A stretch of 64,000 bases of DNA, from NCBI RefSeq assembly GCF_000023125.1, contig NC_013037.1:682001-746000 (forward strand). Reading direction: 5' to 3'. Under the pieces are notes generated by a model that made no database searches, was not told the DNA's origin, and saw only the letters and a program-made list of their open reading frames with translations. The stretch's first letter is position 1. Each line of letters starts with the position of its first letter. The position numbers and the translations under genes are program-made. Shown here in pieces: positions 14,391 to 49,748 of this stretch. The DNA is from Dyadobacter fermentans DSM 18053. Lineage in GTDB: Bacteria > Bacteroidota > Bacteroidia > Cytophagales > Spirosomataceae.

Positions 14391-14409
14391 CCAATATCCT
14401 TCGAAATTT

Positions 14410-15957
14410 TTACTTATTCCACCAAAGCGGCGTCGTAATATCGTCGTTGCCCTGGGCTTTTACGGCGTTCTGGTAATTGGCCAGGTTTACGCTCTGCTCT
14501 TTCGGCGGGTAGTACAAGCGCTCAGGGACGCCTTCGCCGAACAGCGGCTGGAACTTGTAGTCGGTCGTTTTGCCGTCCACGGTGCGGCTCCAAACGGTGT
14601 CGCCGGGCTTCACAAGGAAAGTCGGGTAGCCGGTGCGGCGGATCTCCGCCCAGGCTTCATCGCCCTGCGTGTATAGCGCCAGGTATTTCTGGTTCAGTAC
14701 ATTGGCTTTGTCGGCTTTGGGCAATGCGGCCAGGTAGGTAGTAATGTCGGCCTGGGCCACTCCCCATTTTTGCAATGAGGCGGTTACGCCATTAATGTAT
14801 TCCTGCTGGTCCCAGTTTTTGTATTCCGAAATCAGGAACGCCACTTCGGCATATTCTTGCAAAACCTCCCCAAAGTTGGCGGCATTCACCGCTGTGCCCG
14901 GAAGGCTCACGTCGGTGGCGGTGAGCAAGCCGGCGGCTGCCACGGGCAATCCGTAGGGCTGGCCTACATAGTTACCGGCCGCATTTTTGGTGGCATAAAT
15001 CGGCAGACGGGGGTCTTGCACTTTTACAGTTCCCAATTCTCCTTTCAACACATTGATAATCACATGCGAAACGGCGAAATCCTTGCGGTTGGCCGTCACC
15101 GTGGCGCGGTACAGCGGCGCCTCGTTCGGGGCCAGCAGCTGGTATTTAAACACCGCATTGTCCGCATTGGAAGTGAAAACGCCTTTGGTCAATGCGTCCT
15201 CGAAATGCGTGTTCGACTCGGCCGGCAGCTGTTTGCGGATGCGCGTCGCGATACGGAGGCGGAGCGAGTTGGCGAACTTAGCCCAGAGCTCGTTTTTGCC
15301 CTTATAAATTACATCGTAGTTGCCGAAAGTGGTGGCGCTTTTGTACTTGATCAGCGTGTCACCGGCAGCTTTCAGTTCATTGAGGATGTCGAGATAGATC
15401 TTCTGCTGACTTGCATAGGCCGGGCTCAGATTTTCCGGTTCTTGCTGTAATGCCTGGAACTCGGGGTCCTGGTTGCCGTACGACTGGTAAGGAATGTTCC
15501 CGAAAACGTCGGTCAGGTTCTGAAACGTGTAGGCTTTCAGAATGCGGGCGATCGCGATCTGGTTCGCATTGGTACCGGCCGTTCCGGCAGTAGCGATGTT
15601 CCTGGTCGCCGGGTCGGTATTGAGCTTGATGATCTCGTTCAGGTTGTTCAACGCCTTGTAAGCATTGCTCCAATACGTATCCGAATAAGAGCGCGGAATG
15701 TCGTAGCGTGATTGGTCGCTGTAAATATTCTGGCTGTAATACTGCGAAAAGAGCTGCGAGCCGCGCAGGGAGCTGTTTTCGTTGCGGATGTTGTCCATTA
15801 CCTGCTTTTCGGCGGAGAGCAGGATGGTGGTCGTCGTTACATTGTCAGGACGGTTCGGGTCCTTGTTGATTTCCTCGAAATGACTGTCGGAGCAGGAGGC
15901 GAGCAATGCGCCGATGCCGAGGGCCAGAATGCTTTTGGGATATATGGACTTTTGCAT
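14410..15957 (-). CDS. SusD/RagB-family outer-membrane lipoprotein
   Basis: A 515-residue protein from ATG 15957 (a TTG three codons earlier is less likely). The lipoprotein signal ends LGIGALLASC, with the acylated Cys followed by SDSHFEEINKDPNRP, the usual start of SusD-like_2 proteins. Helical tetratricopeptide-like repeats follow (WSNAYKALNNLNEIIKLN, AIARILKAYTFQNLTDVFGN). The C-terminal YYPPKEQSVN block is also typical. SusD proteins sit on the cell surface, bind the substrate and cap the SusC transporter. It is 22 bp downstream of its SusC and ends at a strong terminator, so the operon is just these two genes. Confidence 0.93.
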   Translation of the reverse strand: MQKSIYPKSILALGIGALLASCSDSHFEEINKDPNRPDNVTTTTILLSAEKQVMDNIRNENSSLRGSQLFSQYYSQNIYSDQSRYDIPRSYSDTYWSNAYKALNNLNEIIKLNTDPATRNIATAGTAGTNANQIAIARILKAYTFQNLTDVFGNIPYQSYGNQDPEFQALQQEPENLSPAYASQQKIYLDILNELKAAGDTLIKYKSATTFGNYDVIYKGKNELWAKFANSLRLRIATRIRKQLPAESNTHFEDALTKGVFTSNADNAVFKYQLLAPNEAPLYRATVTANRKDFAVSHVIINVLKGELGTVKVQDPRLPIYATKNAAGNYVGQPYGLPVAAAGLLTATDVSLPGTAVNAANFGEVLQEYAEVAFLISEYKNWDQQEYINGVTASLQKWGVAQADITTYLAALPKADKANVLNQKYLALYTQGDEAWAEIRRTGYPTFLVKPGDTVWSRTVDGKTTDYKFQPLFGEGVPERLYYPPKEQSVNLANYQNAVKAQGNDDITTPLWWNK

Positions 15958-15979
15958 GATATTCAATATTAATGTCTGC

Positions 15980-18900
15980 TTAGAACTTCACGTTTACATT
16001 CAGGCCGTAGGTCGCAGGAACCGGAATGTTACCGCCTTCGATACCCTGGATGTTGCCGCCGCTGTTGGCGAATTCGGGGTCGATGTATTTGCTGGCGGTG
16101 TAAATATTGGCCAGGTTACGTCCGTATACCCCGAAATAAACCTGCTTCACGGCCTTGCTGTTCAGCGCCAGGTTGTACCCGAATGTGATTTCACGCAGTT
16201 TCACGAACGTTGCGTCGAAGATCGTTTGCGGGGTAGGGCCGCTGTACTCGCCGCGGGCCCATGCCTGGGCGGTAATGCGCGTGTCGTTCGGAGTGGTGTT
16301 GGCCACCGAGTAAGTTCCGTCGGCATTGTAGGTAACGTTTCCTTTCACACCGTCGAGCACCACCCCGGTTTCGCGGATGTTGTTGGCGGCCGTTTTGTCC
16401 AGTACACCTGCGTACATCGCCACTTTGTAGGTTTGCGAGAAGAACTTGCCGCCTACGCGTCCGTCTACGAGGAAGCCCAGGTTGAAGTTTTTGTACGTGA
16501 AGTTGTTCTGGAAACCGAAGAGGTATTTCGGCAGCACGCTGCCCAGCGGGGTGAGCTGCTGCGAGCGCTCATAAGTTCCGTCGGCTTTGATCACCTTCTG
16601 TCCGTCGGCAGCATACACGAAGTCGTTGCCGAGGATTTGTCCGTAAGGCTGGCCTTCGCGTGCCACCAGGGTCACGAGGCTGTTGGCAAGCTGGAATGTG
16701 TTGATGCCCGGCGCGAGCTCGATCACCTTGTTGCGGTTTCTCGACCAATTGAGGCTCGAATTCCACTCAAATCCGTTGGAACGGACCGGCGTGCCGCTCA
16801 ATGTCAGTTCAATACCCTTGTTATTAATCTTTCCTGCATTGATCACCTTCGAATCATATCCGAATGCCGACGATACCGGGATGTTGATGATCTGGTTGCG
16901 GCTCACGTTGTCATAATAGGTAATGTCGAGGCCCACGCGGTTTTTCAATGCCTGGATGTTCAACCCCGCTTCCCAGGAGCTGGTAATCTCCGGTTTGAGG
17001 AACTGGTTGTTCAGCTGCGCAGGCAGTTTGTAGGACGGCAGGCCGTCGAACGATTGGCTCGCTTCGTAGGCACGTTGCAGCTGGTAAGGGTCGGTGTCGT
17101 TACCCACCTGCGCCCAGCCGAGGCGTACTTTCGCAAAATCGAGCCAGCCGATGTCTTTCACGCCATTGAGTTCGCTGAGGATCAAACTCGTTGTTAGTGA
17201 AGGGTATGCGAATGAGTTGCGGTTCAATGGCAGGGTGGACGACCAGTCGTTACGCAGCGTACCATCGAGGAACAACAGGCTCTTCCAGCCCAGCGAGAAG
17301 CTACCAAAGATCGAGCTGATCTGCTTACGGTACGCATTCGAGTTCACAAGTACCGAGCTCGCATTCTTTAAGTTGTAATACTCCGGAATGATCAATCCGC
17401 CTTGGGTTACGGCGTCACTGATCCGGCGGCGCTGACTCATGATGTTACCACCCGCATTCACGTTCAAGGAAATGTCGCCCCAGCTCTTATTGGCTGATGC
17501 AAGCAATTCGTAGTTGAACTCGCTGAAATTGTTGTTATACTCCTGGTATTGCGATTGTGTCCGCGAATACACGGCAATGCGGTCCTGGTATTGGTATTGA
17601 TAAACATCCGCATTCACTTTTCCGCTCACTTTCAGCCAGCTGTTCACATCGTAAACCACGCCTACGTTGCCGTAAAAGCGGTCGCGGTTCTCTTCGAGGT
17701 AGCTTTGGTACGCCGACCAGTACGGGTTATCGATGAACTTCGCCGCTTCACCCGCCGGGTTGTCCTGGTAGCCGCTGCGGTTCCAGAGGATCTGGCTGCC
17801 GTCGGCGCGCTTATAGTTTTTCAGCTTATCGTAATCCACCTGCACCTGTCCCCACTGGAATGCTTCGAGGATGATGTTCCGGTTGGTAGCACCCGTCCAC
17901 GGCCGGCCGGTCGATTGGTTTTTGATATAATTAAAGTTGTTGTAAAACTTAAACTTGCCCGCCTGCGTCGAACCGGAAAAGTTGATCGAGTTACGTTTCA
18001 GGGATGAATTCGGGACCGTACCTTTTACATTTTTATTGGTAAATGAAATGCGGTAGGTCGAGTTGGCATTACCGCCGCTCACGGCCAGGCTGTTTGTATT
18101 CGCCACGCCTGTTTCAAAGAACGTGTGGACGTCGTTTTTAGGGTAAATCCACGGCTGCGGTTTCAGGTACTCCGCAGTATTTTCAGGATCGAGGTTATAC
18201 CAATGCAATACCGGCGTACCGTCGAGCTTGGGCCCCCAGCTTTCATCCACTGCATATTCTACAATATTGTAATCGTTTCCGCCGATGTTGGCTTTCTGGA
18301 AAGTGCTCGAAAAGCCGCCTCCGTAGAGTTTCTGGCGTTTCGGCAGACGTACAATGTTCTCAAACTCCACGCCGGTATTCAGCGTCACGTTCACTTTGCT
18401 GTTTTCCTTGCCTTTTTTGGTGGTGATCAGGATCACGCCGTTGGCGGCACGGGTACCGTAAAGCGCCGCTGCGGATGGTCCTTTGAGCACCGAAATGTTC
18501 TCAATATCGTCCGGGTTAAGGTCCTGGATCATGTTACCCACGTCCTTGCCGCCGCTTCCCGCGCTCGTAGCCGCGCTGTTGAGGTCGGCATTGTCGATCG
18601 GCGTGCCGTCGATCACGTACAAAGGCTGGTTATTGCCCGAAATGGAGTTGATACCACGGAGGAGCACGCGCGACGATCCGCCCATGTTACCACCGGACGA
18701 CACCACCTGCATACCCGCAACCCGGCCCGATAATGCGCTCAGCGCGTTGGTAGGGCGTGTTTGCAATGCTTCACCTTTTACTTCCTGCACGGCATAACCG
18801 AGCGCGCGCTTCTCGCGGGAAATGCCGAGGGCCGTTACCACCACTTCGTTCAGGATCTTGGCGTCTTGCTTCAAGGCCACATTGATTTTATCGCTGTTGC

Positions 18901-44181: not shown

Positions 44182-45213
44182 CTAAACGACAAACTCGAAC
44201 GACGGACCGATCGTGTAGCCGTCTTTCCCTGGGAATGGCGTGGCGCAGAGTTTCTGAGCGGTCAGTTTCAGGTCGTACATCACGCCGATTGTATTGTTGA
44301 GCATTTCCGGGTGCCCGTTGAAAGTGTGATGGAGCCCTGCCAGCAGCGAATAGTAGCTCGCATTGAACTCGTTCATCTGCTTCAATTCCTCGCTGCCTGA
44401 CGGCAGCATGGCGGTTTTCGTGTTCGGGAACAATGGGTACACGTCGTTCGGGTCAAACGGGATGGCCGGGCCGGTGTAGGAAACGCCATATTGGGCGCTT
44501 TCGTCCTTGACCAGCTCCCTACCGAGATACAATTCCTGAAACCGATAGTAATGCGCCGCTTCACCTTCTTCGTCCAGCGGCGACGATGAGGTCCCTTCGC
44601 CTTGCTCGATGATGATATTGATGGCGTCGTGGGCGTTTTGTTTGGTATAAATCGGGAAAAGCTCGTCGGCACCGAAAAATGGCGATGTTACCTGCCTGTT
44701 TTTGTCTCCGGGCAGTTCGTCGGGTGCGAGCTCGTCGATCTTGTGCTGAACGGCCAGGTAAAACTGCCCGATCGTGCTGAATGCAGGCATGGCCGCCAGG
44801 CTTAGCTTTTTGATGTCCAGCGGATGTTCCGGTTCTTCGATTTCCATAAAAACGTCCTTAACGAGCTGTACCGAGTATTTTTCCAATCCCACGATCAGTC
44901 CGTGGCCGATCCCCATCGGCAGCGGGCCGGGGTATTCGGGTACGAACCGGCTGTTGTCGATGGCCGGGCTGCCGCCGAGGGCATTCAGGATGTTGGCCGC
45001 AATGGTCATATGCAGCATTTCCTCGATCACGATCGAATGGATGATCTGCCGTTGCGCCTGGCTGGTGCCGGGTTTGAGGGAAAACATGGCCGTGAGGTAG
45101 GGTGGGATCGTGGAATGTTCCAGTTCGATGGCCCGTTGCACCAGCGGGTAAAGTTCCGACAACGAGTTGGCTGATAATGCCTTGTGGATGTATGTTGAAT
45201 CTATTTTTAACAT
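44182..45213 (-). CDS. Ferritin-like protein resembling the C-terminal half of VioB/RebD
   Basis: A 343-residue protein whose first ~85 residues (LVQRAIELEHSTIPPYLTAM, RQIIHSIVIEEMLHMTIAAN, ILNALGGSPAID) match the ferritin-like domain of VioB, the iminophenylpyruvate dimer synthase of violacein synthesis (KAVDLELSVMLQYLYAAYSI, EIAHEEMIHYLVVNNLL, LMALG). Candidate metal ligands are E30/E32/H33 and E64-E65-x-x-H68. It also has the later VioB-like block SSSPLDEEGEAAHYYRFQEL and a C-terminal helical part. It is 24 bp downstream of the gene for a VioB-like N-terminal half, so the pair equals one VioB cut in two. No amino-acid oxidase (VioA/RebO) lies nearby, so the substrate is unknown. Confidence 0.85.
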   Translation of the reverse strand: MLKIDSTYIHKALSANSLSELYPLVQRAIELEHSTIPPYLTAMFSLKPGTSQAQRQIIHSIVIEEMLHMTIAANILNALGGSPAIDNSRFVPEYPGPLPMGIGHGLIVGLEKYSVQLVKDVFMEIEEPEHPLDIKKLSLAAMPAFSTIGQFYLAVQHKIDELAPDELPGDKNRQVTSPFFGADELFPIYTKQNAHDAINIIIEQGEGTSSSPLDEEGEAAHYYRFQELYLGRELVKDESAQYGVSYTGPAIPFDPNDVYPLFPNTKTAMLPSGSEELKQMNEFNASYYSLLAGLHHTFNGHPEMLNNTIGVMYDLKLTAQKLCATPFPGKDGYTIGPSFEFVV

Positions 45214-45237
45214 TACAGGGGAAATTTTAGCCTTGGA

Positions 45238-47169
45238 TCAAAGATTTTCAAACAAATTCTCGGTAGCCGTGAAGCCTGTGAAAGAGCCGTTCTTGGCCTT
45301 TACCGCCTCGCGGTATCTGATCTGCCGTTCGGTTAATTCAGTCCCCGGCGATACCGGGTTTTCCGCGCGTGCAAGCCTTGCCTGGCTTTTCAAAACGGCT
45401 TTCGGGCCGGTGCGGGGATTTTTCAGCCAGTTCAGGATGGTTTTCCGCTTGGTGTCCGAAAGGTCGCGCGTGACGGGCATGTGCATCGTGTCGTTGATGT
45501 CGAGCGAGAATGCGAAAATGAGGATATTGCGTTTCTCCGCCAGCGCCGCGGGATCGGCCAGGTCGACCACATATTTGCTCATGATCGGGTATAAATTGCT
45601 GTACTGGATCATCATTTCCGAAATATCATCCCAAACCGGTTCGGCGATTTCTTCGAAATAGTCGCGCAGGTGCACGACCAGCTGTTCCGGGCCGAATGCC
45701 GGGTCAATTGTGTCGGATTGGTAGGTGAGGGTGTAAATCTGCCCGTCGATGTACACGCGGGGGCTGTGAATGGCGTTTCCGGTCAGCCGCATTTGCGCTT
45801 TGCCTTCCGCATTCGTTTGGAAGCTGCCATTGAAAGTGAGGCCCTCGGCGGGGTAATTGTTGCCGTACAGTTCCGAGATCGGATTTTGCGGTCCCACAGG
45901 CGTGTCGGGCGTCGGCGGATCGATGCTGATCGTCACGTTCGCATTCGGAAGCGGCTTGCCCCATTGATAGGCATAAAAGTCGACATCGACGGACTGCCCG
46001 TCGTCCAGGCGGAGTACAAAATTATCCGCCCTGGCCACGAGCCCGTCCACCGCCTCGCGCGCCAGGATGGCATATTGCCCGGGATTGGCGGCAGAGGGTG
46101 TGATAAGGATCAGCTGGTGGTTGCGCAGCGCGTCCACCGTTTCGTCGGACAGGTTTCCGAAACTCACGATCCCCCCCGTACGGAGCAGCCATTCGGGGTC
46201 CGATTGGTACGGTATCGCGCCGATTTCGATAAAATCACCGGGGGCGATGTACGACGTTGGCGTTTGAGCACTCGCGGCACCAGTCTGCGGGATTTTGCTC
46301 ACAGCAAGGCGCAAATCCTGCTGAAAATTGATCGTACCCATTGAGTTGGCAACAGGAAAACTCGCGCCAAAATCAGCGGTAACCCTTTTTTGAGCTTCTT
46401 CAAATATAAAATTCGTCGTAGAAAAATACATCCCGCGGACATTGGGCGTCACGCTGATGCCATACATTCGGCGCGCCGCCGCGAATGTAACCGGCTCGTT
46501 TTCAAAGTACGGTCCGATCGAGCCGATGATGCGCCCCAGCGAAAACCTGCCGTCGTTGTGCGAATAATAATATCCGAACGGGTTCATATTGATAGCCAGC
46601 GTATTCCGCTGGGTCGTGGCACGCAGCGTGCGCAGGAATGCGGAATCGTCCGCGTGCGGGCCCCATTCGATATTCGTGATGGTGGAAGTCCAGGTGGCGC
46701 CCAGGGGCTGGCCGTTGCTTTTGCCGCCGTCGAGCTGGCGGCGCTGAATGTCTCGGAAGCTGGTCGTGTTGATATCGCCTTTGAAAAGCAGTTTTCCTTC
46801 GGCATTGCAGATCCTGAGCTGGACACACCAGAGCGCGGAGAACATTTGCGCGTCCGGGTCCAGGTCGACCATCTTGCCGGTAGGCCTGCCTTCCGCGCCC
46901 ACAACCGCCTGGCCGATGATCATGTCGTCGGAAGGATTGTGCTGCATAGTGCCGTCGGGCAGGAAAATCTGCTGCACCGAGCAATTGCGGAAGTCGAAAA
47001 CCGCGCCTCCCTCGGGGTTCCACCAGCCGTTGGTCGAGCCCTGGCCGGGTTCCTGGAAGTTGGGTTTGAAAGTGGCGTTGTTGTAATGTGCCGTGTCGTT
47101 GTTTACTGTGCTGACATCGGAGAGGAAGTCGCCCGTAAACACGAGCCGGGGGGCATGTAGGTAAGACAT
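45238..47169 (-). CDS. Homologue of the N-terminal part of VioB/RebD-type proteins
   Basis: A 643-residue cytoplasmic protein without signal peptide. It opens MSYLHAPRLVFTGDFLSDVS, as VioB does (DFPRIHFRGWARVNAPTANR in the known protein). Near its end it has IQYSNLYPIMSKYVVDLADP, then MPVTRDLSDTKRKTILNWLK, matching VioB YYELVYPFMSDKVFSLADR and MPSTRELSAPKARLFLKYLA. In VioB this is followed directly by the ferritin-like domain; here it ends and a separate ferritin-like gene follows. Summed length (643+343) equals that of VioB/RebD, about 1000. VioB and RebD couple two indole-pyruvate imines; whether this pair does so is not known. A 14-bp palindrome lies 31 bp upstream of the start. Confidence 0.85.
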   Translation of the reverse strand: MSYLHAPRLVFTGDFLSDVSTVNNDTAHYNNATFKPNFQEPGQGSTNGWWNPEGGAVFDFRNCSVQQIFLPDGTMQHNPSDDMIIGQAVVGAEGRPTGKMVDLDPDAQMFSALWCVQLRICNAEGKLLFKGDINTTSFRDIQRRQLDGGKSNGQPLGATWTSTITNIEWGPHADDSAFLRTLRATTQRNTLAINMNPFGYYYSHNDGRFSLGRIIGSIGPYFENEPVTFAAARRMYGISVTPNVRGMYFSTTNFIFEEAQKRVTADFGASFPVANSMGTINFQQDLRLAVSKIPQTGAASAQTPTSYIAPGDFIEIGAIPYQSDPEWLLRTGGIVSFGNLSDETVDALRNHQLILITPSAANPGQYAILAREAVDGLVARADNFVLRLDDGQSVDVDFYAYQWGKPLPNANVTISIDPPTPDTPVGPQNPISELYGNNYPAEGLTFNGSFQTNAEGKAQMRLTGNAIHSPRVYIDGQIYTLTYQSDTIDPAFGPEQLVVHLRDYFEEIAEPVWDDISEMMIQYSNLYPIMSKYVVDLADPAALAEKRNILIFAFSLDINDTMHMPVTRDLSDTKRKTILNWLKNPRTGPKAVLKSQARLARAENPVSPGTELTERQIRYREAVKAKNGSFTGFTATENLFENL

Positions 47170-47249: not shown

Positions 47250-47366
47250 ATTATTAAACGGTCGTAAGTGCTTTCAGTCAAAGCCAAAATGAATAGCGGA
47301 CAGCCACTAGGAAGCTGCCGCGAAAACCATTTATTTCGCTTCGGCAAGTAACCTCTCTTCGATGTG

Positions 47367-48455
47367 ATGGATAACTGGAAAGCAATTGCGTATCTTCTGG
47401 CGTTCGGGCAGGGGTTTGTCCTCTGTTTGTCGCTCATTGCACGCAGCTTCGGCGGGCGGCGCGCCGGCTTGTTCCTGGGGCTGATATTGCTCGTGCTGTG
47501 CCAGGAACTGCTGAATGCCTGGGGCATGCAGGTGCATTATCACAGCCGGCCCGACGCCATTCCGTTCTGGAATTGGCAAAGCTATCTCGTACTTCCGCTT
47601 GCCACCTGGTTTTTCATGCGGCTCACCACGGAGCCGGGCTACGTTTTTAAGCCGAAGTACGGCTCGTTTTTCCTGCCTGTGGCCGTGGAAATCGCCATTC
47701 GGTGTGCGTGGAGTTTTTACAGGAACACGCTGGGTGTGGAAATACCGTCGCTGCTCGACAATGCTCCGTGGTTTTTCGTGACCGAAATCCTGCCCATTAT
47801 GGGAATGGTAGCGGTTTTGGGCATTTACGGTCGACGGTTATCCCGCATTCATTCCGGCTTAAAAACGCATGGCGGTGAACGGAGCGCCCGTACCTGGTTC
47901 CGCTTCTACGGCCTTTTCTCGTTCCTAAGCCTGCTCACAATTTTATGGATCGCCGGGGTGATTTTCGAATGGCCTGTATTTTCGGGTATAGAACTGTTGC
48001 TCGCCCTGTGCCTTTCAGGCCTCGGGTACATCGGCTACATTTCCCCTGACTTCTTCACGTTGCCCGCATTGCCCAAACCCAAACAACCCGAAAAGCCGGA
48101 TTTCGCCCGGTTCGACGATCGGGCGGAGTTTCAGCGGCTGCGCGACGTCTTCCTGCGCGACCAGCTGCACACGCGTTCGGGCCTTACGCTGGACGAGGTG
48201 GCCGGGCACCTGCAACTACCGCCCCGCTACATTTCCTATCTGATCAACGCACATTCCAACACGAATTTCAATGGTTTCGTGAACGGTTTCAGGGTAGAAG
48301 AGGTGATACGCAAGCTGGCCGACCCCGGCGAGCAGCATAAAACAATCCTCGCGCTCGCATTCGAATCGGGGTTCAATTCCAAATCCACATTCAACCAGGT
48401 TTTTAAGCAGCATACGGGCAAGTCGCCGTCGGAGTTTATGCTGGTTCAAAAATGA
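47367..48455 (+). CDS. Membrane-anchored AraC-family transcription regulator
   Basis: A 362-residue protein from ATG 47367. Seven hydrophobic segments fill residues 1-235 (for example WKAIAYLLAFGQGFVLCLSL, FFLPVAVEIAIRCAWSFYRN). A charged linker (PKPKQPEKPDFARFDD) leads to a C-terminal AraC helix-turn-helix domain (about 265-360: SGLTLDEVAGHLQLPPRYIS, KTILALAFESGFNSKSTFNQ, VFKQHTGKSPSEFML). This 7TM-AraC layout is common in Bacteroidota; the membrane part is thought to sense a signal directly. It is divergent from the VioB-like pair, and shared palindromes lie between them, so it probably regulates that operon. Confidence 0.9.
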   Translation: MDNWKAIAYLLAFGQGFVLCLSLIARSFGGRRAGLFLGLILLVLCQELLNAWGMQVHYHSRPDAIPFWNWQSYLVLPLATWFFMRLTTEPGYVFKPKYGSFFLPVAVEIAIRCAWSFYRNTLGVEIPSLLDNAPWFFVTEILPIMGMVAVLGIYGRRLSRIHSGLKTHGGERSARTWFRFYGLFSFLSLLTILWIAGVIFEWPVFSGIELLLALCLSGLGYIGYISPDFFTLPALPKPKQPEKPDFARFDDRAEFQRLRDVFLRDQLHTRSGLTLDEVAGHLQLPPRYISYLINAHSNTNFNGFVNGFRVEEVIRKLADPGEQHKTILALAFESGFNSKSTFNQVFKQHTGKSPSEFMLVQK

Positions 48456-48587
48456 CGTGTACGGAGGCCGAAATGGCCGGAAGTAAGTCCGGAATCGTGA
48501 TTCCGGACGTCCGGGAAAGTGTTCCGGGGCGACGGGTATGCGTTTCAGGGCTTGTTTTGGGATAAAATCATTAAACCTGTCCGTTGT

Positions 48588-49748
48588 ATGTTCAAACCAC
48601 TTTTGCTTCTGTTAGCCATTTGTTTCCCGCCATTAGTATCAATCGCAAACCCGTTCCATCGCCATGTACATGTCGCCTTTGCAGATTCCACTGATGGTCA
48701 GTTTGTGGTAAAGGTTAATGCCAATATAGAGTTGCTGGGGTTCGTCTATTTTCTGGGCTACGAGGGCGCGCAATCGGAAACGCCTTCCTATCCCGACAAA
48801 GACCGCAAACGCTACGCGTACGGGCTTAGCCTTTACCAGCAGTACAAATCTTTTGCAGGCAGTCAAAACCTGGCCGTCGCCATCGGCTTCGCGCAGGACA
48901 TCTGGCTCGATTACTTCATTAACCTGCTCATCCAGCTGGAAGATTTCCCGAATGCGAAGCTGACCGAAGACATCGATCCGGCCTACTACCTGCGTTTTTC
49001 ACCAAAAGGAGATCTGGAAGAGGCGAAAAAGAATGCTGCGGCGTTCATCCGCGCGATGAACGGCCTGTACACGGAAGTAGATTTCAGTTTCTATTTATCC
49101 AAAAGCAAAACCCTGTACGCCAATGCACTCGCCCAGGTGCAGGCCGGGCTGCCGGACAAGCGCATCCTGCCCGCCATGGAGGGCTTTTACCAGGGGCATT
49201 TCGATAGCTACAATCTCATTCCCAGCCTCACGATACCGGCCGGAATGGGTTTCGGAGCAAAGTATCAGAAGGCAAACCGGCACCACGCATTCCACGTTTT
49301 CGGCACATTCGCCATCCAGCAATGGACCGATCCCGCCCGGCTCGACATGGGTTTTGCCGACAAAAAGCATTTGCTCGAACTGAGCACCCACGAATTCGGG
49401 CATTCATTTGCCAATCCTGCCGTAGACCGCCTGCCCGAAACCCTCATTCAGGAAACCCAGCCGCTTTTTGAGCCGATCAAAGAGGCCATGAGCCCGCAGG
49501 GGTACCCCGTTTGGAAAACCTGCCTTTACGAACATTTCGTGCGCGCCGGCGAGGTGGTCATCGCCCGCAAAATGGGCAACCCGGAAGACGCCAAACGTCT
49601 CCGGGATCACTACGTTTTCAACCGGAAATTCATTTACCTCGACACGCTGGTCACTGTACTCGACCAGTACAGCGCATCCGGCAACGGCACTTACCAGCAA
49701 GCAGTTACCAACGCCATGCTGCGGCTGAGGGGGCAGGTAACCAGGTAG
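48588..49748 (+). CDS. DUF4932 protein with zincin-like HExxH motif, exported
   Basis: A 386-residue protein from ATG 48588 (MFKPLLLLLAICFPPLVSIA is a signal peptide; an in-frame upstream start at 48519 lies in leader DNA). The DUF4932 body contains LLELSTHEFGHSFANPAVDR, whose HEFGH fits HExxH of zinc metallopeptidases. A Glu ligand may lie further on, for example in KTCLYEHFVRAGEVVIARKM. Function is not established for the family; a metallopeptidase role is inferred from the motif. It follows the AraC gene by 132 bp on the same strand and is convergent with the GH127 gene at a 13-bp gap. Confidence 0.8.
   Translation: MFKPLLLLLAICFPPLVSIANPFHRHVHVAFADSTDGQFVVKVNANIELLGFVYFLGYEGAQSETPSYPDKDRKRYAYGLSLYQQYKSFAGSQNLAVAIGFAQDIWLDYFINLLIQLEDFPNAKLTEDIDPAYYLRFSPKGDLEEAKKNAAAFIRAMNGLYTEVDFSFYLSKSKTLYANALAQVQAGLPDKRILPAMEGFYQGHFDSYNLIPSLTIPAGMGFGAKYQKANRHHAFHVFGTFAIQQWTDPARLDMGFADKKHLLELSTHEFGHSFANPAVDRLPETLIQETQPLFEPIKEAMSPQGYPVWKTCLYEHFVRAGEVVIARKMGNPEDAKRLRDHYVFNRKFIYLDTLVTVLDQYSASGNGTYQQAVTNAMLRLRGQVTR

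Follow-up and report, generated by a model that had tools for sequence, protein, structure and literature searches.

A two-gene relative of VioB from Dyadobacter fermentans that adjoins ebo genes in many other bacteria

What is a VioB-like enzyme doing in two adjacent genes, with no vio pathway around them? The locus that raises this question belongs to Dyadobacter fermentans DSM 18053 and lies in a window of 64,000 nucleotides (the whole stretch of DNA that was analysed). A sequence-only reading had placed two open reading frames here on the minus strand, and both were confirmed: gene A (45238..47169, from the ORF list and profile comparison) encodes 643 residues and gene B (44182..45213) encodes 343. 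The gap of 24 bp from the stop codon of A to the start codon of B (45214..45237, minus strand) fits a single transcript. The neighbours named in that reading were found as described, namely an AraC-type regulator gene 194 bp upstream of A, divergent from it and followed by a DUF4932 gene, and a GFO/IDH/MocA oxidoreductase gene downstream of B and convergent with it. The accompanying remark that no VioA-type oxidase gene lies nearby is true of the entire 64-kb window, whose open reading frames matched none of the query proteins for VioA-like oxidases, ebo proteins, FMP-type heme proteins or GoxA/LodA at E ≤ 1e-8. The closest relatives of A come from Dyadobacter and share at most 79% identity with it.

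The product of gene B belongs to PF12902 (E = 2.3e-73; 247.1 bits against a gathering cut-off of 22.3), which bears out the assignment of a ferritin-like half to the second gene. A had no Pfam match at E ≤ 1. The NCBIfam model of VioB (TIGR04492) aligned with residues 433–589 of A (45403..45873, minus strand), a segment that includes the YPIMS and MPVTRDLS blocks, at model positions 439–586 (E = 2.4e-4, 19 bits), and with residues 54–228 of B at model positions 666–831, the latter match not being significant alone (E = 0.12, 10.1 bits). The two matches are collinear on the model, and both scores lie far below its equivalog cut-off of 1250 bits. Profile–profile comparison with hhalign, in which 13 A and 13 B proteins were set against an alignment of four true VioB proteins from violacein-type genomes, placed the A family on VioB 1–581 (probability 95.8, E = 7.9e-9) and the B family on VioB 596–932 (probability 98.3, E = 2e-14). 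A and B together thus correspond to one VioB (the iminophenyl-pyruvate dimer synthase), collinear over 1–932 of 998 aligned positions, and the resemblance had been recognised correctly in the sequence-only reading. The opening of A and its MP(V/S)TR(D/E)LS block are shared with VioB, as had been pointed out, and the invariant residues of A common to VioB are Y527, P528, M530, M564, P565, T567, R568 and L570; R233, W327 and R471 of A are conserved as well. The RebD/StaD chromopyrrolic acid synthases are relatives of VioB that share its division into two parts and likewise work with an amino-acid oxidase.

Six residues of B (E32, E65, H68, E126, E206 and H221; codons within 44551..45120, minus strand) are identical in 83/83 B proteins and in 4/4 VioB proteins. 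We take them to be the usual ferritin-like ligand set, and to judge from their invariance B, the presumed catalytic subunit, would carry a four-helix di-iron site. The ELEH motif to which attention had been drawn survives only in part: these six putative ligands are common to VioB, but H33, a His in 82 of 83 family members, is replaced by Leu in all four VioB proteins, so ELEH as such is not a shared ligand motif. A is predicted to be rich in beta structure and to comprise several domains, two of them Ig-like (residues ~242–372 and ~373–504), and a helical C-terminal part; it would serve as the partner of B, its counterpart in VioB being the N-terminal portion of a chain that also contains the ferritin-like half. 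A pure di-iron reading fits poorly with passages of a 2021 review that report heme b and catalase activity for VioB (PMC9705886). The B half of a structure model of an A–B fusion fits PDB 3hl1, Caulobacter CC_0557, a PF12902 protein that is ferritin-like and apparently stands alone, unlike the paired B; a passage of the same review names 3hl1 as the best template for VioB too (PMC9705886).

The last part of A merits a separate remark. Its C-terminal tail (residues 590–643; 45241..45402, minus strand; delimited from family alignments), which reads KAKNGS...LFEN here and is GGKT-like elsewhere, recurs in relatives and is predicted to be disordered, with pLDDT below 50 over the final 16 residues (628–643). 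In alignments, the tail has no counterpart in two natural fusions of the genes (L109 and L111; loci carry L numbers). Docking onto B is perhaps a conceivable role for it.

The two genes keep close company. Among 222 genomes of the window's family, A matches were found in 22, of which 20 are strong (at least 261 bits) and two score 19–23 bits. The B profile gave 26 matches, and the genomes with strong B (at least 494 bits) are the same 20 as those with strong A. The remaining B matches are distant (at most 302 bits, eight of them at 213–302 bits), and A was absent from all six neighbourhoods examined among these eight; in four of them a GMC-type gene lies near the B-like gene, as judged by opening residues or, at L158, by a scan. 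Neither of the weak A matches (L043 and L044) had B beside it. A search across phyla confirmed 166 relatives, the best 80 of which are used for counts; with L039–L042, the window genome and G387 they make up 86 distinct loci. B follows A on the same strand in 81 of the 86 (the tandem locus L107 included). L083 alone has B before A. The two genes are fused in L109 and L111, and in L072 and L123 the contig ends after A. The median A–B gap, measured to the start of the B profile match, is 24 bp (range 0–175; n = 80 separate A-then-B pairs). With the same two-gene arrangement in 81 of 86 loci, a frameshift or assembly error splitting one gene was rejected.

Two-gene pairs occur in seven named phyla, which refutes the supposition that the split is peculiar to one Bacteroidota genome. 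Whereas VioB is a single polypeptide of ~1000 residues, two ORFs (643 and 343 residues in the window) are the rule in nearly all loci of what is a large family of two-subunit VioB relatives. The expectation that A and B always occur together was borne out by the 20 family genomes (of 222) that have both in strong form, and among the 86 loci A lacks B only at the two contig ends; solitary occurrence does apply to more distant A-like and B-like proteins, which stand alone. Natural fusions number three (L109, L111 and L170, the last from a sample of 321 genomes), and since L109 and L111 fall in the same clade of the A tree they may reflect one event. Four genomes carry a true VioB (L129–L132) as well as a separate split pair with ebo (L098, L101, L103 and L108), so VioB and the split pair are not alternatives. 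The pair was also found on eight plasmid records, and on the five of these that were examined the annotation calls A a "hypothetical protein" and B a "ferritin-like protein". Viral contigs and phages gave no match, leaving phage or viral carriage unsupported.

Clustering of ORFs around the pair (best 80 of 166 loci plus L040 and L041) revealed a recurring six-gene set. One member is EboE (448 bits against a cut-off of 250), and EboA was assigned by domain model; the representative of a UbiA/EboC-like protein scored below the EboC cut-off (106 against 250 bits). The AroB-like, TatD-like and phosphodiesterase-like members are presumably EboD, EboB and EboF, to judge from their position and the usual make-up of the cluster. 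By the families found, none of the six is homologous to A or B. At least three ebo genes adjoin A and B in 24 of the 80 loci (best 80 of 166). Of these 24, 21 have their closest ebo gene at a distance of 0–650 bp, and in 20 that gene is on the strand of A. The linked pairs belong to Bacteroidota, Pseudomonadota and Cyanobacteriota, and placing the link on the A tree takes 11 changes. Among the five plasmid records examined (of eight), those of Mycetohabitans endofungorum and Aureibacter tunicatorum carry A and B followed by six ebo genes, one from Gloeothece has the pair with a TatD gene and a dehydroquinate-synthase-like gene (a partial ebo set), and two from Azospirillum have A and B and no ebo. 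Passages on the ebo cluster, a set of genes (EboA–F) tied to metabolite traffic, implicate it in export of a scytonemin precursor, in Nostoc of the monomer into the periplasm, and report that the ebo-containing EDB cluster makes Pseudomonas fluorescens NZI7 unattractive to Caenorhabditis elegans (PMC6282210). In the passages searched from three papers on ebo, neither VioB nor violacein nor ferritin comes up. Because the pair adjoins ebo in many other bacteria, it may make a molecule that ebo carries.

We propose that A and B, presumably in contact, form a ferritin-like oxidase of two subunits that acts on imines derived from amino acids, either coupling or oxidising them, with Ebo proteins handling the product in many bacteria; we consider the chances of this reading to be about even. 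VioB dimerises the imine of indole-3-pyruvate, and RebD likewise acts on pairs of imines. By analogy with VioB and RebD, an amino-acid oxidase would make a reactive 2-imino acid, A and B would join two such molecules or oxidise one, and Ebo proteins would then take over the product in many bacteria. VioB and the six loci with a nearby oxidase are our grounds for the proposed substrate class, and the 24 of 80 loci (best 80 of 166) those for the ebo step.

A different possibility, doubtful in our estimation and still deserving of weight, is that A and B are a ferritin-like oxygenase that works on a single molecule, for example by cleaving or hydroxylating an aromatic or amino-acid-derived precursor without dimerising it, Ebo again handling the product. 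The large sequence divergence of A and B from VioB would suit such an enzyme, as would its variable neighbours: among the best 80 of 166 loci, 16 have a VOC-fold gene immediately after B and 10 have a SnoaL/DUF4440-type gene before A, nine of these ten being from Dyadobacter and Arcicella (the window itself has no convincing match to the latter gene; best tblastn E 1.5). At L056, from Spirosoma fluviale, a gene for an indolepyruvate-decarboxylase-like ThDP enzyme (14404–16200) comes after A, B and an oxidase, and the scytonemin pathway likewise uses a ThDP enzyme. In P. fluorescens NZI7 the EDB cluster, comparable by its ebo content, gives monomeric indoles from tryptophan according to a passage in PMC9655573. 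However, A and B retain the full VioB architecture and its ligand set, and VioB is described in part of the review as acting on imine pairs (PMC9705886).

The imine-coupling proposal also includes a role for Ebo, and this link would be incidental if A and B were a general secondary-metabolism module that had moved beside ebo several times with no shared pathway, which we regard as unlikely. In favour of mere coincidence, 56 of the 80 loci (best 80 of 166) lack three ebo genes in the available stretch, some contigs being short, and ebo was beside the pair in none of 19 loci examined in the window's own family, where ebo is nearly universal. EboE is present in 204 of the 222 family genomes; for that reason genome-level co-presence was rejected as evidence, and the occurrence of both ebo and the pair in the window genome proves nothing. 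Coincidence does not sit well, however, with the short gaps in 21 of 24 linked loci, the mostly shared strand and the spread over three phyla, nor with the lack of ebo at all eight control loci, where distant A-like or B-like proteins are encoded.

Amino-acid oxidase genes, comprising the flavin type (VioA/RebO, L-lysine oxidase) and the CTQ type (LodA/GoxA), are neighbours of the pair at 6 of the 86 loci, a raw count that includes the best 80 of 166. VioA-like flavoproteins are encoded at L056, L039, L061 and L102, and LodA/GoxA-like proteins at L041, L083 and L102. FMP-type heme proteins accompany oxidase and pair at L056, L039 and L061. The last of these, from Flavobacterium salmonis, has on one strand genes for an FAD oxidase, a VioA-like protein, an FMP peroxidase, A, B, a VOC protein and EboA–F, the first oxidase being named from its sequence opening and from a 398-residue counterpart in the window genome. 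Part of a study of fungal lodA-like genes reports PF12902 genes near all five of them (PMC4417212). It is very unlikely that A and B have no biosynthetic role and handle hydrogen peroxide or iron for nearby oxidases as a catalase, peroxidase or iron store: the catalase activity ascribed to VioB in the review passages (PMC9705886) and the peroxide-making oxidases at six loci speak for it, but three of those six already have FMP-type heme peroxidases beside the pair, 80 of the 86 loci (best 80 of 166 included) lack such an oxidase in the available stretch, and stress genes are not among the common neighbours in the ORF clustering (best 80 of 166 plus L040 and L041).

VioB is encoded with vioA, whereas the window has no VioA-like match, and there the absence of an oxidase partner stands. 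It does not extend to the rest of the genome, in which an L-lysine-oxidase-type flavoprotein of 587 residues is encoded 1.05 Mb away, the nearest VioA-like gene to A and B. It lies at C1:1778702–1782548 with genes for an N-methyl-tryptophan-oxidase-like flavoprotein and an FMP heme-binding protein, and is 73% identical to the relative that adjoins A and B in F. salmonis. Its score is 1028 bits against PDB 7eih and 44 bits against VioA, and 7eih is described in a passage of PMC8405998 as an ancestral L-lysine oxidase; an oxidase of this type does not imply tryptophan as the substrate. An orthologue is present in 18 of the 222 family genomes: in all 12 Dyadobacter with A and B against 4 of 36 other Dyadobacter (Fisher 2.6e-8, kinship ignored), and outside Dyadobacter in 2 of 8 genomes with the pair against 0 of 166 (Fisher 0.0019, kinship likewise ignored). 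The orthologue also occurs at L158, beside a distant B-like protein and a GMC oxidoreductase and without A, and may therefore be part of a different system. A full ebo operon is located at G000:C1:3547148–3553830, ~2.8 Mb from the pair and not adjoining it. In this Dyadobacter the pair stands alone, the oxidase, heme protein and ebo genes being encoded elsewhere; that pair, oxidase locus and ebo locus act together is a guess, and one we would sooner doubt than accept.

Going further, and with less confidence than not, A and B could supply the biosynthesis that is missing from a widespread ebo pathway: beyond the cyanobacteria that make scytonemin, many ebo operons would export an oxidatively coupled amino-acid metabolite. 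Violacein, rebeccamycin and ebo products would then share one imine-coupling chemistry, based on an amino-acid oxidase and a two-subunit VioB-type enzyme. A VioB-type enzyme encoded beside the widespread ebo genes offers testable chemistry for ebo cargo other than scytonemin. The conserved ligands raise the question whether the reported heme b of VioB is the whole story. Two smaller proteins may ease the route to a first VioB-type structure and a metal assignment, the structure of VioB having been missing at the time of the 2021 review, as stated in a passage of it (PMC9705886).

The suggestion that A and B are regulated by the neighbouring AraC gene found no support. AraC homologues adjoin DUF4932 homologues, ~3–4 kb from A, in 3 of 10 other Dyadobacter loci (L049, L051 and L054) and were not found in the other seven; a dedicated regulator was rejected on these grounds, and the AraC protein is probably not a regulator of A and B. 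The AraC and DUF4932 genes (47364–49748 in the window) travel together in the three loci and may form a unit of their own.

Several other arrangements were noted. Tandem double pairs, A-B-A'-B', occur at L084, L098, L101 and L107, with ebo at the first three, and possibly represent two coupled enzymes. Long A-like proteins of 692, 712 and 667 residues are encoded at L043 (8398–10473), L044 (7948–10083) and L165 (1902–3902) and score 43–61 bits against the A profile; the first two have a VioB-like opening and no B beside them, and the third lies near a normal A–B pair. Distant B-like ferritin proteins without A are found at L158–L163 (for example L158, 4965–6830, and L161, 4939–8056), several of them adjoining a GMC-type flavoprotein gene and a small gene of 138–143 codons, possibly a second PF12902 system. 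Extra PF12902-type proteins of 506 and 523 residues are encoded near A and B at L073 (12310–13827) and L111 (3337–4905), each followed by a gene for a protein of ~300 residues with a similar opening sequence.
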